The notes under the pieces were generated by a model, which saw only the letters and a list, made by a program, of their open reading frames with translations, had not been told where the DNA came from and did no database searches. From an uncultured Erysipelotrichaceae bacterium (GTDB lineage: Bacteria; Bacillota_I; Bacilli_A; Erysipelotrichales; Erysipelotrichaceae): 32,570 nt of DNA. The first letter of the stretch is position 1; every line of letters begins with the position of its first letter. Location of the stretch: the NCBI GenBank assembly GCA_927435855.1, contig CAKMJZ010000036.1, positions 1-32,570 on the forward strand. Reading direction: 5' to 3'. A program made the position numbers and the translations under genes. Shown one piece after another: positions 6,784 to 22,845 of this stretch.

Positions 6784-7425
6784 CTATTTTACATCGTCCG
6801 GAGTTGTTATCTTAATATTGGCATATGAACCTTCTATTACCCGAATCCGAGTGTCGGAACATAACTCAGCAATCTGTGCATCATCAGTAGCATTTAAACC
6901 TATATCGTACGCTTTGTTATAGCATTTTAGAATTAAAGAAGTCTTGAAGGCCTGAGGTGTTTGGGCCAACATGTGATCTTCGCGCTCAACAGTGGAAGAA
7001 ATGTAATCTCCGTCCATCTTCTTGATCGTATCTTTTGGTTTGACCGCCAATATCGCAGCATCTTCATGTTCCATCGCATTCAGCAAACGATTGACACAGT
7101 CCATCGGCAACCACGGGCGGGCTCCATCATGAATCAACACGACATCTTCCGTTACGGCCATCAGTCCATTGAAAACACTGTCCTGACGGGTATCACCACC
7201 ATTAACCGAGACGATTTTTCCGGATTCGTTTTGTCTGACGATCCGTGGCATATCCGTCCGATTGGTCACAATGACAACCTGCTTACATCGCGGATCATTC
7301 AAAAACAATTGAAGGGTTTGTTCTAAGACTGTTTTACCTTCTTTGAGCGGATAAAACATCTTGTTATACCCCAGTCCCATGCGCGTCCCTTTGCCGGCCG
7401 CGACAATCAATACTGAATAGTTCAT
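6784..7425 (-). CDS. ispD: 2-C-methyl-D-erythritol 4-phosphate cytidylyltransferase
   Basis: Third step of the MEP isoprenoid pathway: joins MEP to CTP giving CDP-methylerythritol. The nucleotide-binding motif AAGKGTRMG is at residues 9-17. HDGARPWLP and LAQTPQAF are the other family motifs. AGAGGTGG lies 5 bp before the ATG. The protein has 213 residues and ends directly after NIKITTPDDVK. Family members usually run some 10-15 residues further, so the last helix appears to be missing. This may be natural variation. No partner MEP genes are in view, and a terminator and the next promoter follow immediately, so it is probably transcribed alone. Confidence 0.93.
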   Translation of the reverse strand: MNYSVLIVAAGKGTRMGLGYNKMFYPLKEGKTVLEQTLQLFLNDPRCKQVVIVTNRTDMPRIVRQNESGKIVSVNGGDTRQDSVFNGLMAVTEDVVLIHDGARPWLPMDCVNRLLNAMEHEDAAILAVKPKDTIKKMDGDYISSTVEREDHMLAQTPQAFKTSLILKCYNKAYDIGLNATDDAQIAELCSDTRIRVIEGSYANIKITTPDDVK

Positions 7426-7500
7426 AGGCCACCTCTTAATCTTTTACCTATTTTAACACTTTTTCATTTAATTTTCATTGATTTTATTTTCGATATTCGG

Positions 7501-7529
7501 TTGTAATCATTTTCGAATGCTCTTATAAT
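7501..7529 (+). promoter_or_regulatory. Sigma-70-type promoter ahead of the cobalamin riboswitch
   Basis: TTGTAA, 17 bases, then TATAAT on the plus strand, with transcription expected to begin a few bases before the riboswitch. It should drive the B12 uptake genes at 7781-9205. Confidence 0.75.
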
Positions 7530-7535
7530 GAAAGT

Positions 7536-7684
7536 GTTGAATAGGTGTTTAACCAACTTAATAGGGAATCCGGTTAACCGGAGCTGCCCCAGCAACTGTC
7601 GATACCGACGACAAAAACAAACCACTGTGCAAACGGGAAGGGTTTTTGAAGGATGACGTATCAGCCAGTAGACCTGCCTAATTC
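7536..7684 (+). promoter_or_regulatory. Cobalamin riboswitch
   Basis: Conserved blocks appear in the right order: AGGGAATCCGGTTAACCGG, then GCTGCCCCAGCAACTGTC, then CCACTG, CGGGAAGG, GGATGACG, and the B12 box AGCCAGTAGACCTGCC at 7663-7678, which differs from the usual AGCCAGGAGACCTGCC at one base. Adenosylcobalamin (or a related corrinoid) is the expected ligand. It precedes genes for corrinoid capture, import and adenosylation, consistent with shut-off when B12 is plentiful. Confidence 0.95.
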
Positions 7685-7696
7685 AAAAAATTTCTG

Positions 7697-7768
7697 TTTT
7701 ATCTTCTGGGTGAAAGATAAAAAGGCAACAAACTTGTCTTTTTTCGCACATCTTGGGTGTGTTTTTTT
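7697..7768 (+). terminator. Riboswitch expression platform: competing antiterminator and terminators
   Basis: Hairpin one pairs TTTTATCTT (7697-7705) with AAGATAAAA (7714-7722). Hairpin two pairs AAAAAGGCAA (7719-7728) with TTGTCTTTTT (7734-7743) and runs into a T tract ending at 7744. The two share bases 7719-7722, so they exclude each other, as expected for an antiterminator and terminator. A third short hairpin, CACAT-CTTGG-GTGTG (7747-7761) followed by seven T, could be a backup terminator. It ends 12 bp before the first start codon. Confidence 0.7.
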
Positions 7769-7780
7769 ATGGGAGGAACA

Positions 7781-8230
7781 ATGAATAAGAATTTTACACG
7801 TATTTTAGTTGCCGTGGTAGCGGCAGCCCTGTTGTACGTAGGCGTTTCGTATCTGACGAAGCCACCGGTAGAACAAGGAAGTAAAGAAGTTACCATCATT
7901 ATGAGCACGAAGCTTGAGGGACAAGTAGAAGAGGTTTTTAAGAAGACCTTTAAAACTGATGTTGAGATGCTTGGGGATTTGTTGGAAGAAGGTGTGGTCC
8001 GGGCATACTTTACCATCGAACTCTCAGGTAACAAGTCCGATGCTTATGGACGTTTCATCGTAGCGATCAATGAATTCAAGACCGAAGACATGAACAAGGG
8101 ACCTTGGTGGACCTATGATTCCAAAACCAATGAAACCTGTGTATCCGCTGGTTACTGTTCTGGAATCGATGCAACACCTGTTTACGATAAAGACGTCTTC
8201 GAATTCACGTATACCGACAGTTTCGAATAA
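7781..8230 (+). CDS. Membrane-anchored DUF4430 (transcobalamin-like) protein
   Basis: 149 residues with an N-terminal signal anchor (~5-25, NFTRILVAVVAAALLYVGV) followed by one small extracellular domain. The pattern FIVAINEFKTEDMNKGPWWTY, a variable loop, then a terminal FEFTYTD resembles DUF4430, the fold related to the C-terminal domain of transcobalamin and intrinsic factor. ATG 7781 is preceded by GGGAGG. An in-frame GTG at 7757 lies inside the leader hairpin and is unlikely. It is the first gene under the cobalamin riboswitch and overlaps the ECF gene by one base (TAATG). I infer that it captures corrinoids at the surface and hands them to the transporter. Direct binding is not shown by sequence. 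Confidence 0.85.
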   Translation: MNKNFTRILVAVVAAALLYVGVSYLTKPPVEQGSKEVTIIMSTKLEGQVEEVFKKTFKTDVEMLGDLLEEGVVRAYFTIELSGNKSDAYGRFIVAINEFKTEDMNKGPWWTYDSKTNETCVSAGYCSGIDATPVYDKDVFEFTYTDSFE

Positions 8231-8763
8231 TGAAACCCGTCGTCCGCTTAGTCGTTATTTCACTGCTAAGCGCTTTATTGGTCGTGGTACAGGTGGCTTT
8301 GGCCGTGGTCCCCAATGTCGAACTGGTATCCTTGCTCATTCTCATCTATACCCTACTGTTACCCTTGCCTACGGCACTGGGTATTGTCGGTATTTTCGTG
8401 ACACTCGAATTCATCATATGGGGATTTGGGGATTGGGTCATTGGATATTATTGGATTTGGCCGATATGGGTTCTATTAGTCTACTTTACCAAGTGGTTCA
8501 ATAAGGATGACCCCCATCGCTGGGCTTTGCTTGGTGCATTTTGGGGTATACTGTTTGGAATTTTATTCTCAATACACCACGGAATCCTTTATGGCATGAC
8601 TTATAGTTATGCCTATTGGATTCGAGGCATTTCTTTTGACATTATACACGCAATATCGAATTATATTCTTATGTTGCTTAGTTATCGTGTTATATTTAAT
8701 ATACTAAAGAAAATGCTTGAAAGGCTAGGTGTATCGTATGAAAGTAACCACAAAAACCGGTGA
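8230..8763 (+). CDS. ECF transporter S component, probably for cobalamin or a precursor
   Basis: 177-residue membrane protein with five or six hydrophobic segments, beginning MKPVVRLVVISLLSALLVVV and containing a Trp-rich loop (FGDWVIGYYWIWPIW). Size and topology fit the substrate-binding S subunit of energy-coupling factor importers. The ATPases and the T subunit are not in the window, as usual for group II ECF systems with a shared module. Position between a DUF4430 protein and a cobalamin adenosyltransferase, under a B12 riboswitch, points to corrinoid uptake. The start codon overlaps the previous stop, so translation is likely coupled. Confidence 0.85.
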   Translation: MKPVVRLVVISLLSALLVVVQVALAVVPNVELVSLLILIYTLLLPLPTALGIVGIFVTLEFIIWGFGDWVIGYYWIWPIWVLLVYFTKWFNKDDPHRWALLGAFWGILFGILFSIHHGILYGMTYSYAYWIRGISFDIIHAISNYILMLLSYRVIFNILKKMLERLGVSYESNHKNR

Positions 8764-9205
8764 TCAAGGTCAAACCGGCGTTTTTAATCAACGAGTAGAG
8801 AAAGATAGTCTGATCATCGATTTATTGGGGAATTTGGATGAAGTCATGGCTCACATGATTGATGCTTACGCAGAATTCCCAGAGGCTAACCCCGAATTGA
8901 AAGATCGCGTGGATGAGCTGATTTTAATGGCATCGGTTGTTGCCGGGTTTAAGAAAGAAGAAGATTTTGGCGAAGAACGGGTCGCACATTTGGAAGAAAT
9001 GATCAAATTACATAATGAAAAGTGTTATGGATTCGTGTATCCTTTTGACAATCCGATGAAAGCACGATTGAATGTTTTGCGAACTGTTGTACGCCGATGT
9101 GAACGCGTTATGGTTCGAGCATTCAAAGAAAACAAGGATTTTCCACTTATTCGTGTATATATGAACCGCTTATCAGACTATGTTTTTATCTTAATCAATC
9201 GATAG
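8738..9205 (+). CDS. PduO-type ATP:corrinoid adenosyltransferase
   Basis: Transfers the 5'-deoxyadenosyl group of ATP to cob(I)alamin, making the coenzyme used by class II ribonucleotide reductase. The 155-residue protein has the N-terminal ATP motif TKTGDQGQTG, LLGNLDEVMAH, the C-terminal NVLRTVVRRCERVM and the terminal LSDYVFIL, all typical of Pfam Cob_adeno_trans. It is slightly short for the family. I start it at ATG 8738, overlapping the ECF-S gene by 26 bp in another frame. The ribosome site is weak (AGGTG), consistent with coupling to the upstream gene. Confidence 0.9.
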   Translation: MKVTTKTGDQGQTGVFNQRVEKDSLIIDLLGNLDEVMAHMIDAYAEFPEANPELKDRVDELILMASVVAGFKKEEDFGEERVAHLEEMIKLHNEKCYGFVYPFDNPMKARLNVLRTVVRRCERVMVRAFKENKDFPLIRVYMNRLSDYVFILINR

Positions 9206-9238
9206 TTCATCAAAGATTATTTTCATAAGTTTCATGAG

Positions 9239-9265
9239 TTGTGTGCAGTTAATTTATGTTAGAAT
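9239..9265 (+). promoter_or_regulatory. Possible promoter of nrdJ
   Basis: TAGAAT at 9260-9265 is a fair -10 element. The best -35 candidates (TTGTGT at 9239, spacer 15) are poor, so this is tentative. No terminator is visible between the adenosyltransferase and nrdJ (92 bp), so readthrough from the riboswitch transcript is also possible. Confidence 0.3.
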
Positions 9266-9297
9266 AAAGAGTATCTTAGGTAAGAGGAGGAATATGT

Positions 9298-11814
9298 ATG
9301 AAGTATCGTGAAGGAACCATCTCGAAAATCAACAACGATATCCGTAATCATTTTCCCCATCTTTTCCCTATCGAAGAAAGTTTTCATGTTACGCACTCCG
9401 GCGTTTCCAGGTTGGTTATGCTGGATCGCTACGCACAAAAGGACCGCAGTTTAAAGACTTTGGGTGTCGATGACATCGTTGTAACGATCGTTAAAGATGA
9501 TCCCAAATTCCCGGCTCGCGGAATCGGTTTGGTCAAGGAAATCGACGTACAACAGGAAACAGCCCTTATCGAGTTGGAAGAAGAATGGCGATCATCGTGT
9601 GAGAATGAACATGAAGCGGAAACCGGATTAATACGACGTCCTTTCAAGAAAATCGACAAACCGATGGAGATCTACTATGAGCAGATTGCCAGACGGGTTG
9701 GTAAAGCCTTAGCATCCACAGAAAACAATGAAGTAAATCGTGAACAATACGCACAGCTTTTTTATCATCAATTAAAAGACTTAAACGTCGTTCCGGCCGG
9801 CCGTGTTCTTTATGGAGCAGGAAGCGGAACTGAAGTAACGTATTTTAATTGTTTCGTTATGCCTTTTGTACGTGACTCCAGAGGCGGAATCGCTGATCAT
9901 CGCAAAGAGGTCATGGAAATCATGTCTCGTGGCGGTGGAGTAGGTAGCAATGGGTCGACTTTACGTCCAAAAGCTGCTCCGGCTAAAGGTGTTGGCGGTA
10001 AATCGTCTGGTGCTGTCAGCTGGTTAAATGATATTGCCAATCTTACACATTTGGTTGAGCAAGGCGGTTCACGTCGTGGTGCTCAGATGATTATGTTGGC
10101 CGACTGGCATCCTGATATCATTGAGTTTATTATTTCAAAAATGCAAAATCCAAGAGTGTTGAAGTGGCTGACCGAAAATTCCAATGATGAGGTCATTCGC
10201 GAAGAGGCTCATAAAAAGCTTAAATTTTATCCGCTTAGTCGTACGGAAAAGGAAATGTATGAGGCCTTAGTCGATAACAAGTCAACTCCTGCGCACATCA
10301 TCGATCATGCCCGTGAAAAACTGATTGATGGAGGTAAACTCGAAGTTCTCGCTTCCGAATTCTTATCCGGCGCAAACATCTCTGTGACATTGACCAGTGA
10401 GTTTATGCAGGCCGTCGCTGATGATGCGGATTATCAACTTCGTTTCCCTGATTTGGAAGTTTATACCAAAGAACAGAAGTACGATTATGACGAACAATGG
10501 CATGTCGTGGGCGATGTTCGTGAATGGGAAGCCCTGGGTTATCCTATTAAGGTTTACCGCACGGTTAAGGCACGTGATATTTGGGACTTGATCAGTTTTT
10601 GTTCCACTTATTCCGCTGAACCAGGTATTTTCTTTATTGATAATGCCAACGATAAAACCAATGCGAAAGCTTACGGGCAAAAAGTCGTCGCTACTAATCC
10701 GTGTGGCGAACAACCTCTAGCACCTTATTCTGTATGCAATCTGGCTGCTGTCAACTTGGCTAACTTTGTTGATCGCAATACAGGCGAAATATTATTTGAT
10801 AAACTTCGTGAGAGCGTCGCATTGACTGTTCGCATGCAGGACAATGTTATCGATGATACTCCTTACTTTTTAGAAGCTAACCGCGTTCAGGCGTTAGGCG
10901 AGCGTCGTGTCGGTTTAGGTGTCATGGGACTTCATGACTTGCTTATCTGGGCAAAAAAGCGATACGGTTCACCAGAAGCCATCGAAACCATTGACCTGCT
11001 GTTTAAAGAAATAGCTGTAACAGCTTATGGTACGTCTATATTGCTGGCTAAGGAAAAGGGTAGTTTCCCATTCTTATCAGATCGCAATCAATTTATAGAA
11101 ACTGGATATATGAAGGATATGCCTGAAGATATTCGACAAGGTGTATTGCAGTATGGTATTCGTAACTCTCACTTATTGACGATTGCTCCAACCGGCTCAA
11201 CCGGTACGATGGTCGGTGTTTCAACTGGCTTAGAGCCTTACTTCTCCTTCTCTTACTTCCGTTCCGGGCGTTTGGGTAAGTTTATCGAAGTCAATGCCTC
11301 GATCGTTGAAGAGTTTATCGCAATTCATCCTCAGTACACCCGCGCTAATCTGCCTGATTACTTTGTTAGTGCTATGGAATTGTCTCCGGAAGAACATGCG
11401 GATTCACAATGTGCTATTCAGCGTTGGATCGATTCCTCGATTTCCAAGACTGTCAATGCACCGCGTGGATATAGTGTTCGCCAGGTCCAACAGATTTATG
11501 AGCGCTTGTACAAACATGGAGCTAAAGGTGGTACCGTTTATGTTGATGGATCACGTGATAGTCAAGTATTGTCACTGACCAATGATGATGACAACTCCTG
11601 GGCACAAATGGATATCGTTCGTGACTTTGGTGTCAGCGTTAAGGAAAAGCAGGAAGAAAGTAAAAAGACGGATCTTCGTGCTGATCGTCAGGACCGTAAC
11701 ATCGGTAATGAAGTCGGTGATATATGTCCGATATGTTTAGAAGGTGTCGTCGAGGATATCGGCGGTTGCAATACCTGTACCAACTGTAATGCACAGTTGA
11801 AGTGCGGACTATAA
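9298..11814 (+). CDS. nrdJ: Adenosylcobalamin-dependent (class II) ribonucleoside reductase
   Basis: Reduces ribonucleotides to deoxyribonucleotides with a radical generated from coenzyme B12, needing no oxygen. 838 residues. Visible motifs: NCFVMPF with Cys185; GGGVGSNGS (~222-230); the active-site NPCGEQ with Asn467, Cys469 and Glu471; SVCNL with Cys480, the likely disulfide partner of Cys185; GVMGLHDL; APTGSTGTMVG; and a C-terminal cysteine cluster (CPIC, CNTCTNC, KCGL) that re-reduces the active site or binds metal. GAGGAGG lies 7 bp before the ATG. It follows genes that import and adenosylate its cofactor, and a strong terminator follows. Confidence 0.96.
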   Translation: MKYREGTISKINNDIRNHFPHLFPIEESFHVTHSGVSRLVMLDRYAQKDRSLKTLGVDDIVVTIVKDDPKFPARGIGLVKEIDVQQETALIELEEEWRSSCENEHEAETGLIRRPFKKIDKPMEIYYEQIARRVGKALASTENNEVNREQYAQLFYHQLKDLNVVPAGRVLYGAGSGTEVTYFNCFVMPFVRDSRGGIADHRKEVMEIMSRGGGVGSNGSTLRPKAAPAKGVGGKSSGAVSWLNDIANLTHLVEQGGSRRGAQMIMLADWHPDIIEFIISKMQNPRVLKWLTENSNDEVIREEAHKKLKFYPLSRTEKEMYEALVDNKSTPAHIIDHAREKLIDGGKLEVLASEFLSGANISVTLTSEFMQAVADDADYQLRFPDLEVYTKEQKYDYDEQWHVVGDVREWEALGYPIKVYRTVKARDIWDLISFCSTYSAEPGIFFIDNANDKTNAKAYGQKVVATNPCGEQPLAPYSVCNLAAVNLANFVDRNTGEILFDKLRESVALTVRMQDNVIDDTPYFLEANRVQALGERRVGLGVMGLHDLLIWAKKRYGSPEAIETIDLLFKEIAVTAYGTSILLAKEKGSFPFLSDRNQFIETGYMKDMPEDIRQGVLQYGIRNSHLLTIAPTGSTGTMVGVSTGLEPYFSFSYFRSGRLGKFIEVNASIVEEFIAIHPQYTRANLPDYFVSAMELSPEEHADSQCAIQRWIDSSISKTVNAPRGYSVRQVQQIYERLYKHGAKGGTVYVDGSRDSQVLSLTNDDDNSWAQMDIVRDFGVSVKEKQEESKKTDLRADRQDRNIGNEVGDICPICLEGVVEDIGGCNTCTNCNAQLKCGL

Positions 11815-13756: not shown

Positions 13757-14491
13757 TCAGAGCTCTTTTTCGTTATGATACTCCAATGTAATGACAATCT
13801 GATCGCCTCTGAAGAAAACCTCCGAATACTCAAAGATGACATTGTTGACATATCGTCTTTCTTTGAGATAGAGAAGAGGTTGAGAGACTTTCATGTTTAA
13901 TTTACGAGCTTGGTCTTCATTAGCGAATACAAGTTCAAGCGTTTCTTTCGTATCTGTTGGTTTTAAGGCGTAATCATCACGCAAGATATTGCATAATTGC
14001 TCATCGCATAATCGTTCGTTAGAGATTATTGGATTTACAATTCGTTTCAAATAGGTACGATGGATACTTAGAGGTTTCCCTTTGATATAGCGAATGCGTT
14101 CGATAAAATAGACTTCACTTTTGATATCAATCATTAGTTTACTTGCGACGCGTTCATCTGTCATGATTATTTTGTTTTGCAGAACCTCGGTTTTGATCTC
14201 AAGCCCTTGATTTTCCAATTGCTCGCGAATACCCATTTGAGCGAGCGGGCGGGTGGGGATTTTTGGTTCAGAAACAAATGTTCCTTTACCCGGTACGCGA
14301 TACAACAACCCTTCTTGGACAAGACGAGTTAGAACCGATCTCACGGTCATTCTACTGATTTGATGTTCCTTACTTAGTTCATTTTCAGACCCTATCATGT
14401 CCCCCGGATTCCAATCTCCACCATAAATTTTCTCGCGGAGGTTGAACTCGAGTTGTTCCCATAAAGGTTTCGAATTGTTTCTGTCCAGCAT
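13757..14491 (-). CDS. GntR-family regulator, HutC/UTRA subfamily
   Basis: 244-residue transcription factor. Residues ~9-75 form the winged helix-turn-helix (GSENELSKEHQISRMTVRSV, then GKGTFV). Residues ~95-240 are the UTRA ligand-binding domain, with FIERIRYIKGKPLSIHRTYL and EYSEVFFRGDQIVITLE. AAGGAG precedes ATG 14491. It lies just beyond the end of the catabolic operon at 15084-21204 and on the same strand, so it probably senses a phosphorylated intermediate of that pathway. A match to the HutC-type operator consensus lies on the operon start site (21428-21435), which supports this. The gene has its own terminator. Its promoter is not clear: only a short inverted repeat, GTAC-N7-GTAC, at about 14518-14532. 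Confidence 0.92.
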   Translation of the reverse strand: MLDRNNSKPLWEQLEFNLREKIYGGDWNPGDMIGSENELSKEHQISRMTVRSVLTRLVQEGLLYRVPGKGTFVSEPKIPTRPLAQMGIREQLENQGLEIKTEVLQNKIIMTDERVASKLMIDIKSEVYFIERIRYIKGKPLSIHRTYLKRIVNPIISNERLCDEQLCNILRDDYALKPTDTKETLELVFANEDQARKLNMKVSQPLLYLKERRYVNNVIFEYSEVFFRGDQIVITLEYHNEKEL

Positions 14492-15083: not shown

Positions 15084-16526
15084 TTATAGATACTTTACGC
15101 GAATATGCTTTATATATAGATATTCGAACAACCCTTCGGTTCCATGTTCGTGACCAAACCCGCTATCTTTCCATCCACCATAAGGCGCATTAATAACGCC
15201 TGCATCAGGATTATTAATTGCTACGTTTCCTGCATGCAATTCTTTGCAGAGTAATTCCACTTCGCTAAGATTGTTCGAATAGACCATTGCGGCCAATCCG
15301 TAAACAGTATCGTTCGCTAGCGATATGGCTTCATCTAAAGTTTTATAGGACATTACCCCGACAAGCGGTCCAAACGTTTCTTCTTTCATAACAAGCATGT
15401 CATGAGTAACATCCGCTAGAATGCTTGGTTCGAAATAGTTGCCGTTGCTGGTGGCAAACTTATCCGGTTTTTTGCCGCCAGTTAACAGTTTGGCTCCTTT
15501 TTTCAACCCATCTTCGATTTGACTCTTAGTTTTCTCGATTCCTTTTTGTTGGCACATCGGACCAAGATCAACGTCTTCGATTAATCCGTTTCCGATAGTC
15601 AATTTTTCAGTCGCCATAACGAATTTTCGTAAAAATTCTTCATAAACGGTTTCGTCGACATAGATACGATTAATAGCGATGCATATCTGCCCCATATTTC
15701 GAAAGGAACGTCGCGTGGCACCAGCAACCGCAGCGTCCAGATCTGCATTCTTTGTGATAATCATTGGCAGACTTCCACCTAATTCTAACGAAACCTTTTT
15801 CAATGTATTCACCGAATTTGCAAGAATGATCTTTCCGGTCTCAGTTGATCCTGTAAATGCTACTTTCTTCACTTTCGGATTATCCATGATGATTTTTCCT
15901 ACTTCAGCACCAGAACCTGTCAACGCATTGATGACGCCATTCGGTACTCCAGAATCTTGGATGCAACGAATGAATTCCAAAGGTGACAATGGTGTCTCAG
16001 AGGGGAGTTTGCAAATACTTGTACAGCCTGCCGCCAAAGCTCCAGCTACTTTCCATGCGATTAGCTCGATCGGGTAGTTCCAAGGCGATATTGAAACTGC
16101 GACGCCCATGGGTTGATAGATGACTCTACTCTCAGTGTTTATCTCGGCATTAGGAATTATTCTTCCATAGACACGTTCTCCTTCTTCAGCATAATACCGA
16201 AGAATTTCTGCCCCTTTTTTTACTTCACCAAGCGCTTCCTTGAAGGGTTTTCCTTGTTCTTGGGTCATCAGTTTCGCGATCTCTTCCGCTCTCTCTAGAA
16301 CAATCGAACTTGACTTACGAAGGTATTCGCCACGTTGAAAAACTGTCAGTTTCGACCATTTCTTAAATGCGACATCTGCAGCATCTACGGCATCTGCGAT
16401 GTCCTGGTGAGTTGCTTTAGGTACTGTCGCGATAATCTCGTTGGTCGCGGGGTTGGAAACTTCGATAACGGCTGTGCCTTTTCCAGAAGTCCACTTCCCA
16501 CCGATGAACATTTGATACGTCAACAT
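15084..16526 (-). CDS. NAD(P)-dependent aldehyde dehydrogenase
   Basis: 480 residues, full length. Cofactor and catalytic motifs: SPWNYP (~147-152), FTGSTETG (~224-231), LELGGSLP with general base Glu248, and GQICIAIN with nucleophile Cys282. It oxidises an aldehyde to its acid. The overall look is of the succinate-semialdehyde or lactaldehyde dehydrogenase type, but the substrate cannot be read from sequence. As the last gene of the operon it probably takes an aldehyde released by one of the two aldolases. The cupin stop lies 6 bp upstream and the ribosome site is weak, so translation may be coupled. Confidence 0.92.
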   Translation of the reverse strand: MLTYQMFIGGKWTSGKGTAVIEVSNPATNEIIATVPKATHQDIADAVDAADVAFKKWSKLTVFQRGEYLRKSSSIVLERAEEIAKLMTQEQGKPFKEALGEVKKGAEILRYYAEEGERVYGRIIPNAEINTESRVIYQPMGVAVSISPWNYPIELIAWKVAGALAAGCTSICKLPSETPLSPLEFIRCIQDSGVPNGVINALTGSGAEVGKIIMDNPKVKKVAFTGSTETGKIILANSVNTLKKVSLELGGSLPMIITKNADLDAAVAGATRRSFRNMGQICIAINRIYVDETVYEEFLRKFVMATEKLTIGNGLIEDVDLGPMCQQKGIEKTKSQIEDGLKKGAKLLTGGKKPDKFATSNGNYFEPSILADVTHDMLVMKEETFGPLVGVMSYKTLDEAISLANDTVYGLAAMVYSNNLSEVELLCKELHAGNVAINNPDAGVINAPYGGWKDSGFGHEHGTEGLFEYLYIKHIRVKYL

Positions 16527-16532
16527 AATGAT

Positions 16533-16922
16533 TTATTCTTTCATCGGGATTTTTCCCGTTACCCATAACACCTGCAGGGGTTGATTGCCTTTTTGCTTGG
16601 TTGTATGGAATAGACCAGGAGGGACATAGAGTCCATCGCCAGGCTTAATATCAAATTCTTCATCGCCTACGACCATTGTTCCCTCACCTGAAATCACGAA
16701 GTATACTTCTTCCATATCATCATGAACGTGTCCGGTTGTGGTTCCTGTCGCATAAATTATGGTGTATCCCATTTTAAGGCCTTTCGAAGGGCCTCCTTTT
16801 TCAAAATCAACAAGAAAATACGTATCTCTTAGTACAGGCTTATCACGATTCAACACTCTTGCGCGAAGTGATCTGGGATCAAGGTCCGCTTCTTTATCTT
16901 CGATATTGGTGACATATTTCAT
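16533..16922 (-). CDS. Small cupin protein
   Basis: 129-residue single-domain cupin. Motif 1 is GHVHDDMEEVYFVISGEG, giving metal ligands His65, His67 and Glu71 or Glu72. Motif 2 is PGDGLYVPPGLFHTT with His106. All four ligands are present, so it should bind a metal. In sugar-acid operons such proteins act as isomerases or epimerases, and some are lyases. Here the role is not determined. AGGAAG lies 6 bp before the ATG, and the gap to the hydroxyacid dehydrogenase gene is 22 bp. Confidence 0.85.
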   Translation of the reverse strand: MKYVTNIEDKEADLDPRSLRARVLNRDKPVLRDTYFLVDFEKGGPSKGLKMGYTIIYATGTTTGHVHDDMEEVYFVISGEGTMVVGDEEFDIKPGDGLYVPPGLFHTTKQKGNQPLQVLWVTGKIPMKE

Positions 16923-16944
16923 TTTTCTTCCTACTTTCTTTTGT

Positions 16945-17907
16945 TTATTGATTCATTTTCAATTTGACTTTATTGACAGAATTTTCAGGCTGATGTCCAT
17001 TGAGGACATGGATGATTCCTTCGATAGCCTCGATTGCGACGCGTTGGTTGCACTCGTTGGTCAGTGCCGCACTATGCGGCGTTAGGATTACATTGTCTTT
17101 TTGTGCCAAAGGATTGCCTTCGAGCATCGGTTCCACTTCAAATACATCGAGTGCCGCACCAGCGATTTTACCTTGATTCAAGACATCGATCAGATCGTTT
17201 TCAACTATCAAACCGCCTCTGGAGGTATTGATAATGAAACTCGTAGGTTTCATTATTTCTAGTAATCTCTTATTTATTAAATTGCTTGTTTTTTCGTTTT
17301 TTGGAATATGAATTGACAGAAAGTCTGCTTTTTCAAATAGTTCTTCAATCGTGGGTACCAAGACGATTCCCTCAGGCGCTGTAGTAAGGTAAGGATCAAA
17401 TCCGATGATTTGCATATTCAGTGCAGATCGGCATTTTTGTGCGACCATCAACCCAATCTTTCCACAACCAAGCAGTCCTAGTACTTTTCCATCGATGTCA
17501 ACGGCTTTGTTTGTGCGACGAACAGCGAAATTTCCTGTACGCGTCTGATTATCGTAGAATACGATTTGTTTTGCCAAGGCTAATATGAAAGTCAAAGTGT
17601 GTTCAGCGACGGAGATGGAATTCGCATTCGGCGTGTTCAAAACAAGGATGTTTAGATTTGTTGCTTCTTCAACATCGACATTGTCGTAACCTACCCCTGT
17701 CCTACTTATAACCTTTAGCTTTGTACATTTTTTCAGTAACTCCGCATTGATTTTAAAGGAGGTGCTCAACAATACAGCATCGGCTGTCGCAAGTTCGGAT
17801 TCGAACATACCTTTGTTTCCTTCGGGTACTACGACGACTTCGGCTAATTCGCTTAATCTTTTGACAAGATTCTCGCTGACTTTTTTCGTTAAGATAACTT
17901 TTCTCAT
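16945..17907 (-). CDS. D-2-hydroxyacid dehydrogenase (phosphoglycerate dehydrogenase-like)
   Basis: 320 residues of the D-isomer-specific family, which interconverts 2-keto acids and D-2-hydroxy acids with NAD(P). The Rossmann motif GLLGCGKIG includes Gly147, Gly149 and Gly152. Catalytic residues are Arg230 (NTSRGG), Glu259 (FEVEP) and His278 (TPHSA). Substrate loop: SRTGVGYDNVD (~68-78). There is no regulatory ACT domain, so it is more likely catabolic than serine biosynthesis. The ATG overlaps the DHDPS-like stop by 4 bp (ATGA), so the two are translationally coupled. It may reduce or produce the keto acid used by that aldolase. Confidence 0.9.
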   Translation of the reverse strand: MRKVILTKKVSENLVKRLSELAEVVVVPEGNKGMFESELATADAVLLSTSFKINAELLKKCTKLKVISRTGVGYDNVDVEEATNLNILVLNTPNANSISVAEHTLTFILALAKQIVFYDNQTRTGNFAVRRTNKAVDIDGKVLGLLGCGKIGLMVAQKCRSALNMQIIGFDPYLTTAPEGIVLVPTIEELFEKADFLSIHIPKNEKTSNLINKRLLEIMKPTSFIINTSRGGLIVENDLIDVLNQGKIAGAALDVFEVEPMLEGNPLAQKDNVILTPHSAALTNECNQRVAIEAIEGIIHVLNGHQPENSVNKVKLKMNQ

Positions 17908-18791
17908 ATGAGCTTTTCCGCTTCCAACTTCTGCTTTATGGATTCTTTTGTCTCTACTGGCAGTTCGAAAAGCGGTTTTCTCGGCTTGCCTCCAACATAT
18001 CCGGCAAGATCCATGGCATACTTGACAGCCGCAACTCCACCAGATCCAGAAACCGACTTATTCAGCATCATTATGCGATTGTTTATTTGACTCGTCTTTT
18101 CAATATCGTTTTTTATAAATTGTGTATAAAGCTCGTTTGTTAATTCTGGGAATGGATTGGCCAAGGAGATAACGCCTCCTGTTGCACCGTTTTGCATGGC
18201 TTCTAGAAAGAAATTAGCCGATCCAGCCATTACACATATTTTGTCTTTCACTGCAGATAGAAAATCAAGGATATTTCCGCTTGACGAGTCTTTGATTCCG
18301 GCGATATTTCTATGTTCGGCAAGCCTGCTTACCAAAGCAACGGACAATGTTGTTCCACCACAAAATTGGGGAGCGTTGTAGACTAGACACGGAATATCTA
18401 CAGAATTTGCCACATCGGAAAAATATTGATATAAGACTTCATCCGTCATCTCTTTTTTGAAATAGGAAGGCGGGAGAAGCGTGATGTAATCGGCACCGAT
18501 TTTTTGCATTATTTTAGCATAATAGATCGTTTCGATTGTGGACTCGAAAATACATCCGGCCATCACTACTTGATCCTTGCCTTTGTTCTCTACGATGACT
18601 TTCAAAACTTCCAATTTTTCTTCATTGGTGAGACTTTTATTCTCTCCATTTGAGCCGAGCGCTAAGTATCCGGAAATACCGGATTTTGCATATTTACGCA
18701 TGTTTACTTTTAAACCTTCCAAATCAACGCTCTCATCACTTAAAAAGGGCGTTGTTATTGGAGCAAATACTCCTTTTAAATATTCATCCAT
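17904..18791 (-). CDS. DHDPS/N-acetylneuraminate lyase-family aldolase
   Basis: 295-residue class I pyruvate aldolase of the DapA/NanA/KDG aldolase superfamily. GSNGE (46-50) is the keto-acid carboxylate loop (GTTGE in most DapA). VYNAPQ carries catalytic Tyr138, and AGIKDSS carries the Schiff-base Lys167. The operon context (kinase, dehydrogenases, UTRA regulator) argues for cleavage of a 2-keto-3-deoxy sugar acid or 4-hydroxy-2-oxo acid to pyruvate plus an aldehyde, not lysine synthesis. AGGAGG lies 6 bp before the ATG, 14 bp after the DeoC-like gene. Confidence 0.9.
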   Translation of the reverse strand: MDEYLKGVFAPITTPFLSDESVDLEGLKVNMRKYAKSGISGYLALGSNGENKSLTNEEKLEVLKVIVENKGKDQVVMAGCIFESTIETIYYAKIMQKIGADYITLLPPSYFKKEMTDEVLYQYFSDVANSVDIPCLVYNAPQFCGGTTLSVALVSRLAEHRNIAGIKDSSSGNILDFLSAVKDKICVMAGSANFFLEAMQNGATGGVISLANPFPELTNELYTQFIKNDIEKTSQINNRIMMLNKSVSGSGGVAAVKYAMDLAGYVGGKPRKPLFELPVETKESIKQKLEAEKLI

Positions 18792-18805
18792 AGCTACCTC
18801 CTGTT

Positions 18806-19528
18806 TTATTCTTCACTGGTAATGTTTTGAATGATTTCGCTTAATTCATCTACAATCATCGGCGCGTTTCTTGTTCCGATACGTTCAGCACCGGCGAATA
18901 GGCACCCTAGCACAACCATCGGCGTAAAGAAACTACCTGTCCCGGCAACTTTCACTTTCATGGAGGGTGGCGTATTCTTCCGCATTATTTCAACTTGTTG
19001 GAGGGTCGGTCCGCCATGTCTTCCTGTTGATGTTTTTACCCAATCTGCGCCAGCTTCAACCGACAGTTGACACGCCTTGATGATTTCTTCATCACTAAGA
19101 AAAGCGACTTCTAATATTACCTTGCACTCAATATCCGCATCATGGGCAATTTTTACAATTGCTTCAATGTCTTTTTTATAGTATTCGTAATCACCACCCC
19201 GAAGTTTACCGACATTGCTTACCATATCTATAACTCCTGGACGATGGTTAAGCGCTGTAACCGCATTCTTGGCTTCTATTACTTTAACTTCGGTAGGGTT
19301 TGTGCCAAAGGGGAAGCTGATGACAATTCCTGTTTCGATTCCTGTACCTTCAAGATGATCGGCAACGGTCTTGATCCAGATCGGATTCACATGGAACCCT
19401 TTGAAATTGTATGCTATCGCAACATCGCAATCTTTAAGTATCTCGGCTTCTGTCGAGTTTGGATTCAAATTTGAAAAATCCATTAAGCTTGCTATTTTTT
19501 CTCTAGTCAACTGTTTGAAATCAAACAT
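18806..19528 (-). CDS. deoC: DeoC-type (deoxyribose-phosphate aldolase family) class I aldolase
   Basis: 240 residues with the TIM-barrel signature of DERA. Asp101 (VIDMVSNVGKLRGGDYE) and Lys193 (KVKVAGTGSF) match the proton-relay residues, and Lys165 in DWVKTSTG matches the Schiff-base lysine. DERA joins or splits deoxyribose 5-phosphate into acetaldehyde and glyceraldehyde 3-phosphate. The N-terminal LMDFSNLNPNS differs from the usual DHTLLKP. No nucleoside phosphorylase or phosphopentomutase is nearby, and the neighbours are sugar-acid genes, so the substrate may be a related phosphorylated sugar. I start at ATG 19528 (AGAGGA 8 bp upstream). An upstream frame extension has no ribosome site. 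Confidence 0.88.
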   Translation of the reverse strand: MFDFKQLTREKIASLMDFSNLNPNSTEAEILKDCDVAIAYNFKGFHVNPIWIKTVADHLEGTGIETGIVISFPFGTNPTEVKVIEAKNAVTALNHRPGVIDMVSNVGKLRGGDYEYYKKDIEAIVKIAHDADIECKVILEVAFLSDEEIIKACQLSVEAGADWVKTSTGRHGGPTLQQVEIMRKNTPPSMKVKVAGTGSFFTPMVVLGCLFAGAERIGTRNAPMIVDELSEIIQNITSEE

Positions 19529-19624
19529 GTGTTTATCCTCTTCCTTCTTTCCTATCTGTTTCAAGATTATTTTGAAAATGAAATCTTAAATAGAGATTTC
19601 GAAACTAAAGAGATTGAAAACTTT

Positions 19625-19653
19625 AAAAAGCAGGGGAAGTAATTCCCCTGCTT
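19625..19653 (-). terminator. Strong intrinsic terminator between kinase and aldolase genes
   Basis: On the minus strand AAGCAGGGGAA and TTCCCCTGCTT form a perfect 11-bp stem around TTAC, followed by TTTTT. It lies 12 bp after the kinase stop and about 97 bp before the DeoC-like start, splitting what otherwise looks like one operon. Confidence 0.92.
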
Positions 19654-19665
19654 GGTTCGAATTAC

Positions 19666-21204
19666 CTATTCGTGTGTCTTCTTGAAATAACCACCTTTAC
19701 TGAGTGAATCATAAGCTGATTGGAATAGTCCGAATGCTTTTTCGTATGCTTTTACATTTGCCGGATTCGGAGTATAAGTTTCTTTAACATGTACTACTTT
19801 TTCGACAGCTTCGTTGTAGGTTTTGAAAAGACCTGCGCCGATACCTGCATAGATAGCAGCTCCTAAACAACCTGTTTCGGAAGTTTGCAGAAGTTTAACG
19901 GGTACTCCGTAAATATCTGCCTGCATTTGATTCCACAGTTTCGACTTGGTAGCTCCTCCTGTCAAACGTACTTCTTTAATATTGACTCCAGCTTTCTTCT
20001 GAGCTTCAAAGTTGTCCTTCATTTCGAAGGTGATCCCTTCCATGACTGCTCTGGCGATATCTCGTTTCGAAGTGGATAGAGATAATCCCAAGAATGCTCC
20101 GCGTGCGTAACTGTCACCGCGTGCTCCGCCGTCTGCACCTGCTAAATATGGTAGGAACGTTACGCCGTTCGCCCCAGGAGGAACAAGCGCAATCTGGGCA
20201 TTGATCAATTCATAAGGATCTACATTCATGCCTGGAGCTAATGCTTTTTCAAGGCTGGAGAACGTGTCTCTGTACCATCGATAACTAGATGCCGCTGTCG
20301 AAGATGCTGCTTCCATAGTGAAGGTTTCAGGTCCGACATTGCTCTTAACCATTAGAATCTTATTTGGATCGCGTACAGCTTTATCAGACCCTACGAAGAT
20401 CGATCCGTATGTTCCCATAACCAAAACCGCATCACCATCATTGACTAGTCCTGCTCCGATTGTCGAACAATTCTGATCATGCGCTCCAAGACAGATAAGT
20501 GTGCCTTCAGCAAGTTTCGTGATTTCTGAAACAGCCTTCGACACTTTACCTACGACCTGTCCACCACGTCCGATTTTAGCGAATTTAGCTTCGTCCAAGC
20601 CGAATGCTTCGAATATTTCTTTACTCCATACACGATTATCAACATCAAATACACCAAGGCGTTGTGCGGATGCTGTATCGGTCCAATATTCAGTTGCGCC
20701 AAATGCGCGCGTGAAGAAGTCTTGGTTTGTGCTATACATAGCTGTTTTGGCTGCGATTTCCGGTTCTTCGTCTTTAAACCATAGAATTTTTGTGCCAGCC
20801 AATACGGTACCGATACTGTATCCGGAGATTTTGTAATACAGATCAGAATTGATGATCTCGTTTTTCCGAATTTTCTCAGCATACTTGATACCGCGAGCAT
20901 CTTGCCATCCCATGAAAGGTCTGAGTAACTTACCGTTTTTATCTAACGGACCCCAAACGCCACCTTGTGTGGAGATAGCCATTGAAACAATATCCTTTGG
21001 ATCAACTTTTGACTTCTCGATAGCTGATCGAACCGAAGCGTATAAACCCTCTGTTATTTCGTCATCTTTTTGTTCGACCCATCCTGGATTGGGGAAATAA
21101 CATGGATACTCACGATAATCTTCTCCAATTACATTTCCACTGAGGTCGAATACTACTGCCTTACATCCTGTCGTTCCTTCGTCAAGCCCTAGCAAATACT
21201 TCAT
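19666..21204 (-). CDS. FGGY-family carbohydrate kinase (xylulokinase/LsrK-like)
   Basis: 512-residue sugar kinase with an actin-like ATPase fold, acting in the cytoplasm. N-terminal phosphate loop LLGLDEGTTGCKAVVFD (4-20), STQGGVWGPLD in the sugar-binding lobe, second-domain motif FLPYLAGADGGARGDSYARG (~354-373), and LTGGATKSKLW near the adenosine site. Length is normal. The substrate is uncertain: xylulose, erythritol and autoinducer-2 kinases share these features. AAGGAGG lies 6 bp before ATG 21204. It is the first gene behind the regulated promoter at 21439-21467, after a leader of about 230 nt, and is followed by a strong terminator. Confidence 0.91.
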   Translation of the reverse strand: MKYLLGLDEGTTGCKAVVFDLSGNVIGEDYREYPCYFPNPGWVEQKDDEITEGLYASVRSAIEKSKVDPKDIVSMAISTQGGVWGPLDKNGKLLRPFMGWQDARGIKYAEKIRKNEIINSDLYYKISGYSIGTVLAGTKILWFKDEEPEIAAKTAMYSTNQDFFTRAFGATEYWTDTASAQRLGVFDVDNRVWSKEIFEAFGLDEAKFAKIGRGGQVVGKVSKAVSEITKLAEGTLICLGAHDQNCSTIGAGLVNDGDAVLVMGTYGSIFVGSDKAVRDPNKILMVKSNVGPETFTMEAASSTAASSYRWYRDTFSSLEKALAPGMNVDPYELINAQIALVPPGANGVTFLPYLAGADGGARGDSYARGAFLGLSLSTSKRDIARAVMEGITFEMKDNFEAQKKAGVNIKEVRLTGGATKSKLWNQMQADIYGVPVKLLQTSETGCLGAAIYAGIGAGLFKTYNEAVEKVVHVKETYTPNPANVKAYEKAFGLFQSAYDSLSKGGYFKKTHE

Positions 21205-21427
21205 TTTTACCTCCTTCGTTAACGTTTTTTCAACGTTTGAACCTATTTAAAACTGCATAATCGTATAAATCCATTCCGCTGCTGATCAAGTTTACTTGTC
21301 TCAATTTTCGTTTTGTTTGATAAAGTATTTTTACTGTCGTGTCTAATGATTTATATACCACCCAAACGTTCAATTTCAAGTAATTAAGTGCGCCTAAAGG
21401 TGATGTTATATGATAATGTTATACCCT

Positions 21428-21435
21428 GTATATAC
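21428..21435. promoter_or_regulatory. HutC/UTRA-type operator on the kinase operon start site
   Basis: GTATATAC matches the HutC-subfamily consensus GT-N-TA-N-AC and is embedded in a longer near-palindrome (TGTATATACTGTATA). It covers the expected +1, a few bases after the -10 box, where bound repressor would block initiation. The linked UTRA regulator at 13757-14491 is the natural candidate. Confidence 0.5.
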
Positions 21436-21438
21436 TGT

Positions 21439-21467
21439 ATAATATCGCACTAATAACACAAAGTCAA
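21439..21467 (-). promoter_or_regulatory. Sigma-70-type promoter of the catabolic operon
   Basis: TTGACT, 17 bases, TATTAT on the minus strand (complement of 21462-21467 and 21439-21444), about 235 bp before the kinase start codon. Confidence 0.78.
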
Positions 21468-21486
21468 CCCTATGAGGAAGGAAAGT

Positions 21487-21500
21487 TGATAACGCTTACA
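21487..21500 (-). promoter_or_regulatory. CcpA catabolite-responsive element (cre), perfect match
   Basis: TGTAAGCGTTATCA on the minus strand fits all 14 positions of the cre consensus TGWAARCGYTWNCW. It lies 20 bp upstream of the -35 box of the operon promoter. Sites in that position can activate or repress. It implies control by CcpA and HPr-Ser-P, and supports a Bacillota origin. Confidence 0.75.
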
Positions 21501-21509
21501 TCATGTAAA

Positions 21510-21547
21510 TTTTTGCAATATATGCAAAAAAATACCACAATTGTGGT
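21510..21547. repeat. Two adjacent palindromes upstream of the cre site
   Basis: TTTTTGCA-ATATA-TGCAAAAA at 21510-21530, and the perfect 14-bp palindrome ACCACAATTGTGGT at 21534-21547. Neither is followed by a T tract of the kind seen in terminators, so they are better read as possible protein-binding sites. From 21548 to about 21780 I see no gene or clear signal. Confidence 0.45.
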
Positions 21548-21779
21548 CACAGACTGATGACAAGTGCTCCTTTTTTTAATGATTCACTAAAGACTGTTCA
21601 AAAACGGAGTTAAAAATCCTGTTGAGTTTCTAACCTTGTTTTTCTTCGAGTAAATACGTGGTTGATAAAAGAAGTAAAGGATGAAAATATCGATTATAGG
21701 GTTTATTTTATTGCCATTAACCATCATTTTTATACTCATTGATGCGAAAAAAGTACTTGTAATCCGGCACTTATGGATA

Positions 21780-22740
21780 TCTCAATACTACATATAAGAC
21801 AATCCTTGTTTCTCCCTTCCGTTCCCAATCACCCGCTCAATCAGTTAACGTGCTATGGTGGAAACTTTATACCCCGCATCTAAACCCATGCTTTGAATCA
21901 TTGCCCTAAAATACTTGATGGATTTTTCTCCTCATCATAAAAAATCGGTCATCATGAAGATCCTCTTAATCAATCTTGACCCTCATCACTTATCCTTATT
22001 GATCACATAACAGCTTATGCTATGTAAACAAATTGATTTACGTACTCGCCTTCATTAAAAATTTCACTTTCCGGATCAGCGATGCTTTGTTTGATCCACT
22101 TCTCTTTGGTACCGCGGGGTTTGGAGGTGTGAGACCTTTCGATTCGCCGAGTACATCACATTCATGATTCAATGCATTTTATAAACCCTCTATTCTTCCA
22201 GAATTAACTTTTCCTCCCCCTTTGCGTTTATTCGCATTCGCTTTAATATGGGTTGAATCCATATATATGCTCCGGATGGAAAAAGCCTTTCGCATTCGCT
22301 TGACCCAAGATTCGATTAAATACCTCTGCGAATACGGATTTGGATTCAGGCACTCCGATAATGGACGAATCACTTAAATGTTCTGACTAAATTTCCGTGT
22401 ATAGTTTTTTGAGAAGTCAGAGAAAAATGAATAGATTCTTCGACACTTAGCTCAGTGAACAGTTGATACATTAGATATTTTTCCGTTTCCACTACGGTTT
22501 TACGCATACTGTTTTACACATAAAGATGTTTGATAAACAACCGTTTAAACAGGATGATGGCATCGAAAATTCGACGCCCGATTGTTGAATAGAGCTACTC
22601 AATCTAGTCAAAGATATACCGGAAGTCAATAACTTAATCGACTTTCCGTGATAGATGGTTTTCCGGGATAAACGTCCCTAAATAATCACACTCATCTCAA
22701 GAGATTTTTGGATCGTTTTCGCAATCACTTGCGTCACCCT
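21780..22740 (-). pseudogene. Heavily decayed IS1182-type transposase
   Basis: Minus-strand frames, broken by many stops and shifts, give pieces in the right order for IS1182-family transposases: RRIFDAIILFKRLFIKHLYV near 22510-22570, SMRKT near 22500, SIYMDSTHIKANANKRKGGG near 22210-22270, KWIKQSIADPESEIFNEGEY near 22040-22105 (family pattern DPES...KG), and GLDAGYKVSTIAR near 21850-21890 (family pattern DAGYK). No intact frame above 64 codons remains. Exact ends and inverted repeats are not visible. Confidence 0.75.
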
Positions 22741-22780
22741 TGATACAACATTTTTATCATTTATAGTTTATCCTTACATA

Positions 22781-22812
22781 AAAAAGACTGTCGGCTTTTA
22801 TTTCGACAGTCT
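22781..22812 (-). terminator. Intrinsic terminator of the ABC exporter operon
   Basis: On the minus strand AGACTGTCG and CGACAGTCT form a perfect 9-bp stem around a 10-base loop, followed by TTTTT, about 33 bp after the permease stop. Confidence 0.8.
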
Positions 22813-22813
22813 G

Positions 22814-22840
22814 AAACTACACAATTAAGTGTGGTTTTTT
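22814..22840 (+). terminator. Orphan plus-strand terminator, near copy of 13194-13221
   Basis: AAACTACAC, loop AATTAA, GTGTGGTTT (one G-U), then T residues. The first 14 bases are identical to the terminator of the lipoprotein gene. No plus-strand gene lies upstream here, only the decayed transposase, so it may be a duplicated or stranded element. Confidence 0.6.
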
Positions 22841-22845
22841 AATGT

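Follow-up and report, generated by a model that had tools for sequence, protein, structure and literature searches.

The DNA analysed here, a stretch of 32,570 nucleotides referred to below as the window, comprises positions 1 to 32,570 of contig CAKMJZ010000036.1 of an uncultured Erysipelotrichaceae bacterium (GCA_927435855.1). This metagenome-assembled genome (MAG), designated G000, has a length of 1.57 Mb in 70 contigs and is about 70% complete. Positions 15084–21204 of the window carry six genes encoding a kinase, two class I aldolases, a hydroxyacid dehydrogenase, a cupin, and an aldehyde dehydrogenase, followed by a gene of a GntR/UTRA regulator. Re-examination of the list of open reading frames (ORFs) indicated that all six are complete and run in one direction, on the minus strand, and all six products exceed Pfam gathering cut-offs (FGGY_N/C, DeoC, DHDPS, 2-Hacid_dh and 2-Hacid_dh_C, Cupin_2, and Aldedh). 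The features of the locus are as follows:

21439..21467, minus strand: putative promoter-like site TTGACT-17-TATTAT upstream of the kinase gene, from a scan that overall was not above shuffles
19666..21204, minus strand: FGGY-family carbohydrate kinase, 512 aa (PF00370, PF02782)
19619..19656, minus strand: terminator-like hairpin with an 11-bp stem and a U-run between the kinase and DeoC-type genes (-18.6 kcal/mol)
18806..19528, minus strand: DeoC-type class I aldolase, 240 aa from ATG 19528 (TIGR00126)
17904..18791, minus strand: dihydrodipicolinate synthase (DHDPS)-family aldolase, 295 aa, probable 2-keto-3-deoxy-acid aldolase (PF00701)
16945..17907, minus strand: D-2-hydroxyacid dehydrogenase, 320 aa (PF02826, PF00389)
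16533..16922, minus strand: small Cupin_2 protein, 129 aa, possible isomerase (PF07883)
15084..16526, minus strand: NAD(P)-dependent aldehyde dehydrogenase, 480 aa, similar to succinate-semialdehyde dehydrogenase (SSADH) (PF00171)
13757..14491, minus strand: GntR/UTRA regulator (PF07702, PF00392)

The listed ORF of the DeoC-type gene opens at TTG 19564, but the gene probably starts at ATG 19528, since this codon has a ribosome-binding site (GAAGAGG) in front of it and coincides with the starts of the paralogues. Counted from this ATG, the gaps between the genes from the DeoC-type aldolase to the aldehyde dehydrogenase are 14, -4, 22, and 6 nt, with the DHDPS-type and hydroxyacid dehydrogenase genes overlapping by 4 nt; given such short gaps, these five genes look like one transcript. 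The kinase gene is separated from them by 137 nt, and the hairpin located in this gap suggests that the kinase transcript may be terminated separately or attenuated. A general terminator scan of the region found 11 candidates against 7.2 ± 2.8 expected in shuffles, which is not clearly above the background. A single six-gene transcript is considered likely. The UTRA regulator gene is situated 592 nt past the aldehyde dehydrogenase gene, and at this distance it possibly forms a separate transcription unit. The preliminary description of this DNA, which reported six genes co-directional with a UTRA regulator, was correct in the gene identities, the direction, and the presence of the regulator, although the latter lies outside the 15084–21204 interval. 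Just downstream of the promoter-like site there are ATACA-type repeats (ATACAGTATATACAGGGTATAAC), which could be the GntR/UTRA operator. Comparison with the promoter of a paralogous gene cluster on contig C66 of the same genome established no operator common to both.

The operon is real and intact; its enzyme families are ordinary ones, and their combination is unusual. It is not a chance reading, since there are seven family-level matches with intact motifs, and each of its two sub-modules (the kinase, DeoC-type aldolase and UTRA regulator in the first, and the DHDPS-type aldolase and hydroxyacid dehydrogenase in the second) recurs elsewhere. Only the DeoC-type protein passes a curated NCBIfam cut-off; the kinase, both dehydrogenases, and the DHDPS-type protein match many NCBIfam models, all of them below cut-off. 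No characterised pathway with this gene set was found in protein families, solved structures, or open-access papers, and the open-access literature contained nothing relevant on the combination of FGGY, DeoC, and DHDPS. The earlier statement that the operon matches no pathway is therefore upheld, as the six enzymes were nowhere found characterised in one named pathway.

At the thresholds used, the full six-gene set was not detected in the other 97 relatives or in 391 genomes of the phylum. Relatives of the kinase at E 1e-90 in the phylum sample came from its own genome only, and, where the genes around the DeoC matches in relatives were read, FGGY was not among them. No close DHDPS relatives were found in 391 other same-phylum genomes (E 1e-60) or in 344 other genomes of the Bacteroidales class (E 1e-70). 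Protein searches of plasmid records gave distant homologues only, and the two best regions were devoid of operon partners. Clostridia and Spirochaetota were covered by the single-protein DHDPS scan alone, and the restriction of the set to one genome refers to what was searched.

The kinase contains the characteristic motifs, with D243 in GAHDQ and TGGATKS. Its scores are below every cut-off of the NCBIfam models for XylB, gluconokinase, autoinducer-2 (AI-2) kinase, and glycerol kinase, XylB being the best-scoring model. The best single Protein Data Bank (PDB) match is LsrK (163.8 bits), which brings to mind the processing of AI-2 (4,5-dihydroxy-2,3-pentanedione), with the FGGY kinase as LsrK and the DeoC-type aldolase as LsrF. 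However, the AI-2 kinase model reaches 231.6 against a cut-off of 528 and ranks third after XylB and gluconokinase, the aldolase matches deoxyribose-phosphate aldolase (DERA) and not LsrF in both NCBIfam and PDB, and LsrG, LsrR, and a transporter are absent. Direct assignment to the Lsr system was rejected on these scores, and an Lsr-like function is extremely unlikely. Two paralogues of the kinase are present in the same genome, on contigs C66 (38% identity) and C63 (35%); the substrate-loop motif is STQGG in the operon kinase and STQRA or SSQRG in the paralogues. The C63 gene is located directly downstream of an apparent 2-oxoacid dehydrogenase complex operon (region L032:170-6746).

The DeoC-type protein passes the DERA profile TIGR00126 (160.4 bits, cut-off 117.3), and its PDB matches are DERAs, with which the Schiff-base K177 (VKTSTG) and the relay K205 are aligned. 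At the same time, the motifs that bind the 5-phosphate in DERAs, GG[IV]RT and G[TA]SS (GTSS/GASS), read GTGSFF and GTRN here, and they are likewise changed in both paralogues. With the phosphate pocket rebuilt in this way, neither the position of the phosphate nor the kinase product as the substrate can be assumed. A single-sequence AlphaFold model of this protein was poor (pLDDT 50) and was left unused.

The simplest reading of a kinase plus DeoC is a deoxyribose route, in which the kinase would form 2-deoxyribose-5-phosphate, DeoC would split it into acetaldehyde and glyceraldehyde-3-phosphate, and the aldehyde dehydrogenase would produce acetate, while the remaining genes would serve something else. 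The formation of acetaldehyde by a kinase and DeoC is the known deoxyribose pathway (PMC6365646). The window operon resembles this DeoK–DeoC pathway in that a Schiff-base aldolase of the DERA family comes after a kinase, and the passed DERA cut-off agrees with such a route. Nevertheless, it is quite unlikely: the phosphate motifs are altered in the operon protein and its paralogues, the DHDPS-type, hydroxyacid dehydrogenase and cupin genes are left unused, and the operon contains four genes more than the pathway needs. In addition, its kinase belongs to the FGGY family and not to the deoxyribokinase family, and FGGY kinases are not known to act as deoxyribokinases.

In the DHDPS-type protein, the fold, the Schiff-base K167 (GIKD), Y138, and the pyruvate-binding GxxGE motif (GSNGE) of the DHDPS-family pyruvate-releasing aldolases are all present. 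The position of Arg138 of E. coli DapA is occupied by Phe143, invariant in all seven homologues, and identity with DapA was rejected on this ground. The AlphaFold model, built with seven sequences (pLDDT 77.7), has human 4-hydroxy-2-oxoglutarate aldolase HOGA1 as its closest PDB match (TM 0.90, 30% identity). The hydroxyacid dehydrogenase has the catalytic residues R230, E259, and H278, and its leading NCBIfam models are phosphoglycerate dehydrogenase (PGDH) and glyoxylate reductase, both below cut-off. Another genome of the same family, G010, also contains operons in which a hydroxyacid dehydrogenase gene accompanies DHDPS-family genes (L030:3012-6084 and L029); L030 additionally has a gene similar to those of acid-sugar kinases and the beginning of a transport operon.

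The metal motif of the cupin is complete (HxH...E and PPGxxH), and its PDB matches are only weak ones, including DddK and archaeal phosphoglucose isomerase. The aldehyde dehydrogenase has the catalytic E248 and C282. In PDB alignments with 8s33, 3ek1, and 3jz4, its W158 corresponds to the Arg and a Gly to the Ser of SSADH, the residues that bind the substrate carboxylate. As both residues are replaced and the NCBIfam score is below the SSADH cut-off, the SSADH assignment was rejected. The earlier claim that all catalytic residues are intact thus holds for the chemistry, for which the motifs were located, and fails for specificity, since the DERA phosphate motifs, DapA Arg138, and the two SSADH positions are changed. 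With specificity residues unlike those of the namesakes, the substrates should not be read from the annotation names.

The first sub-module has a second copy in G000 on contig C66 (DeoC 41%, FGGY 38%, and UTRA 44% identity), and the same trio is encoded by contig C57 of the congener G006; the window regulator is 43–44% identical to the regulators adjoining the paralogous DeoC–FGGY pairs. This recurrence supports the earlier suggestion that the kinase and the DeoC-type enzyme form a functional pair. The reactions suggested along with it, a split into a triose phosphate and an aldehyde and the oxidation of the latter, are possible ones. The surroundings of the trio differ from those in the window: in place of the DHDPS-type, hydroxyacid dehydrogenase, cupin, and aldehyde dehydrogenase genes, the trio is followed by genes of a class II fructose-bisphosphate aldolase (FBA)-family protein and of a PHP protein. 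In front of the trio, C66 encodes a membrane protein, a HAD phosphatase, and a divergent transaldolase (449 aa), for which no PDB match was found at E 0.01. Between the transaldolase and the phosphatase, contig C254 of G006 also encodes RpiB and a split transketolase; the join of C254 and C57 rests on synteny with C66. On C66, RpiB and TktN are missing from this place and a decayed remnant of TktC, the C-terminal half of the transketolase, is left (L031:6965-7704, remnant at 7178-7704), while in G006 these genes are intact. A few kb from the C66 transaldolase, MtnK and MtnA homologues above cut-off and a class II aldolase-family gene stand in a row (L047:1492-4548), resembling the dihydroxyacetone phosphate (DHAP) shunt for 5-deoxypentoses.

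The congener probably uses sulfoquinovose, judging by its gene content: G006 has a DUF4867 (SftX) gene adjoining that of a sulfoquinovosidase of the YihQ type (568.7 bits, cut-off 553), which is cut by the contig end (L049:1692-3703). Together with its split transketolase, RpiB-type isomerase, and transaldolase, this gene set is similar to the bifurcated sulfo-TK/TAL pathway (PMC11659671, PMC13219744). One may ask whether the window operon handles fragments of sugars of the sulfoquinovose type, or another modified sugar, with the aldehyde dehydrogenase and the hydroxyacid dehydrogenase acting on sulfolactaldehyde and sulfolactate. We regard this as very unlikely. None of the sulfo-TK/TAL genes listed is in the window operon, and nothing links the contig of the sulfoquinovosidase to the module. 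DUF4867 was not found in G000, which is about 70% complete and in which sulfoquinovosidase was not searched for. Moreover, the C66 cluster has lost RpiB and TktN, its transaldolase has no structural match, and no sulfosugar gene was seen in the Bacteroidales loci read.

These Bacteroidales loci represent the second sub-module. Among 84,980 genomes, a scan with the DHDPS-type protein alone, which finds close relatives only, revealed six loci (L021–L026), all in Bacteroidales or Bacteroidia MAGs, with 61–63% identity over the full length and identical active-site segments. In all six, the next gene encodes a homologue of the hydroxyacid dehydrogenase (42–44%). The neighbourhood comprises genes of RpiB, split transketolase, transaldolase, an SBF transporter, an RraA-like protein, DUF362, a PfkB kinase close to 2-keto-3-deoxygluconate (KDG) kinases, and SusC/SusD-like proteins. 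An acid-sugar dehydratase-like gene of the enolase superfamily is present in L023, L024, and L025, a protein with an SMP-30/gluconolactonase domain was additionally found in L046, and one locus has GH43 genes. Unlike the window, these loci have no adjacent DeoC, cupin, or aldehyde dehydrogenase genes and no close FGGY homologue, the only FGGY gene seen (L025) being distant (28%); close DeoC relatives are absent from all six genomes. This is a context of acid-sugar breakdown, and the most likely activity of the DHDPS-type enzyme is, accordingly, that of a 2-keto-3-deoxy-acid aldolase. A keto-acid branch ending in pyruvate, proposed in the preliminary description, gains support from the same context, with the aldolase/dehydrogenase pair located beside the KDG-kinase-like PfkB and, in three loci, beside acid-sugar dehydratases.

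The Bacteroidales neighbourhood also bears on a C5 route, in which an FGGY pentulose kinase with DeoC-type cleavage and a Dahms-type 2-keto-3-deoxypentonate (KDP) aldolase would both yield glycolaldehyde (C2), the aldehyde dehydrogenase would convert it to glycolate, and the hydroxyacid dehydrogenase would act on glycolate/glyoxylate or hydroxypyruvate. The genes of RpiB, transketolase, and transaldolase beside the same pair, GH43 in one locus, XylB as the best kinase model despite its score below cut-off, and the PGDH and glyoxylate reductase models leading for the dehydrogenase are consistent with such a route, as is the formation of pyruvate and glycolaldehyde in the Dahms pathway (PMC9795676). 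As in the Dahms and non-phosphorylative Entner–Doudoroff pathways, a DHDPS-family KDP/KDG aldolase would be expected to release pyruvate and an aldehyde and is accompanied by an aldehyde dehydrogenase. However, the window operon contains no sugar dehydrogenase, lactonase, or dehydratase, and has the kinase/DeoC branch and the D-2-hydroxyacid dehydrogenase in addition. A pentonate dehydratase of the IlvD/EDD family was found neither in G000 nor in G006, and the STQGG loop of the kinase differs from those of its paralogues. The C5 route is unlikely.

The two sub-modules are connected through the transaldolase. The C66 protein is 63% identical to the transaldolase adjoining the DHDPS-type and hydroxyacid dehydrogenase genes in L021, L023, and L026; among 118 relatives, this transaldolase occurs only in G000 and G006, both of which have the C66-type trio. 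The RpiB and split transketolase of G006 are 40–51% identical to the Bacteroidales copies. The shared transaldolase and these similarities associate the two sub-modules but do not prove a link.

We propose a two-branch inducible operon for a sugar or sugar acid, built from the two sub-modules; of the readings considered we hold it to be the most likely, and would give it an even chance. In the first sub-module, the FGGY kinase would phosphorylate a ketose or polyol, the DERA-like aldolase with the altered phosphate pocket would split the product into a C3 phosphate and an aldehyde, and the UTRA repressor would sense an intermediate. In the second, the hydroxyacid dehydrogenase and the DHDPS-type aldolase would act together on a 2-keto-3-deoxy or 2-hydroxy acid to give pyruvate and an aldehyde. 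Either cleavage would supply the aldehyde dehydrogenase with its substrate, a short, non-dicarboxylic aldehyde; for the cupin, the role of an isomerase or mutarotase is probable. The recurrence of both sub-modules, the transaldolase bridge, the loss of the two SSADH carboxylate-binding residues, and the Phe in place of DapA Arg138 speak for this proposal. Several observations weigh against it. The full set is seen in a single incomplete MAG, and the operon contains no transporter gene. The hairpin implies that the kinase may be transcribed apart from the other genes, and, considering the passed NCBIfam cut-off, ordinary deoxyribose-phosphate cleavage by the DeoC-type enzyme is possible. Finally, no IlvD/EDD dehydratase that would supply a 2-keto-3-deoxy acid was found in G000 or G006 (enolase-superfamily dehydratases were not searched for in G000).

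As for the rest of the contig, the operon is situated in the part containing dnaB, gdpP, ssb, and rplI. Its guanine–cytosine content (GC) and that of its third codon positions (GC3) do not differ from those of the housekeeping genes to its left, and hence nothing visible marks it as foreign. A step in composition lies at about 25.8 kb, at a distance of 4.6 kb from the operon: GC increases from about 0.41 to 0.52 and GC3 from about 0.40 to 0.6. This step is possibly a chimeric contig join or the border of an acquired segment. The segment 25800–32570 encodes LysO, a YgjP-like protein, an FprA-like flavoprotein, a PepD-like peptidase, and a NagA-like deacetylase. Upstream of the kinase gene, positions 21205–22845 contain no intact gene, and the fragments there look like a decayed transposase, unconfirmed by Pfam. 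A cobalamin riboswitch (88.9 bits) was detected on the plus strand within 7526–11814, upstream of genes of a small membrane protein, cobalamin adenosyltransferase, and ribonucleotide reductase.

The related clusters in the same genome, the sister species, and Bacteroidales suggest an undescribed route for a sugar or sugar acid. In a broader reading, which we offer tentatively and consider conceivable rather than probable, the operon of the window, the cluster shared by C66 and G006, and those of Bacteroidales would all be versions of a single undescribed catabolic network. In this network, kinase/DeoC-like cleavage would be joined to the hydroxyacid dehydrogenase and 2-keto-acid aldolase step via the divergent transaldolase and split transketolase, and the sugar broken down would be one so far linked to none of these enzymes. 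If so, there would be a new sugar or sugar-acid pathway to add, and the DERA subfamily with a rebuilt phosphate pocket would join the enzymes misnamed by automatic annotation, as would a specific DHDPS-type subfamily (YNAPQFCGG, PPSYFKKEMTD). The recurrence of the aldolase/dehydrogenase pair across phyla provides a concrete handle toward the substrate.

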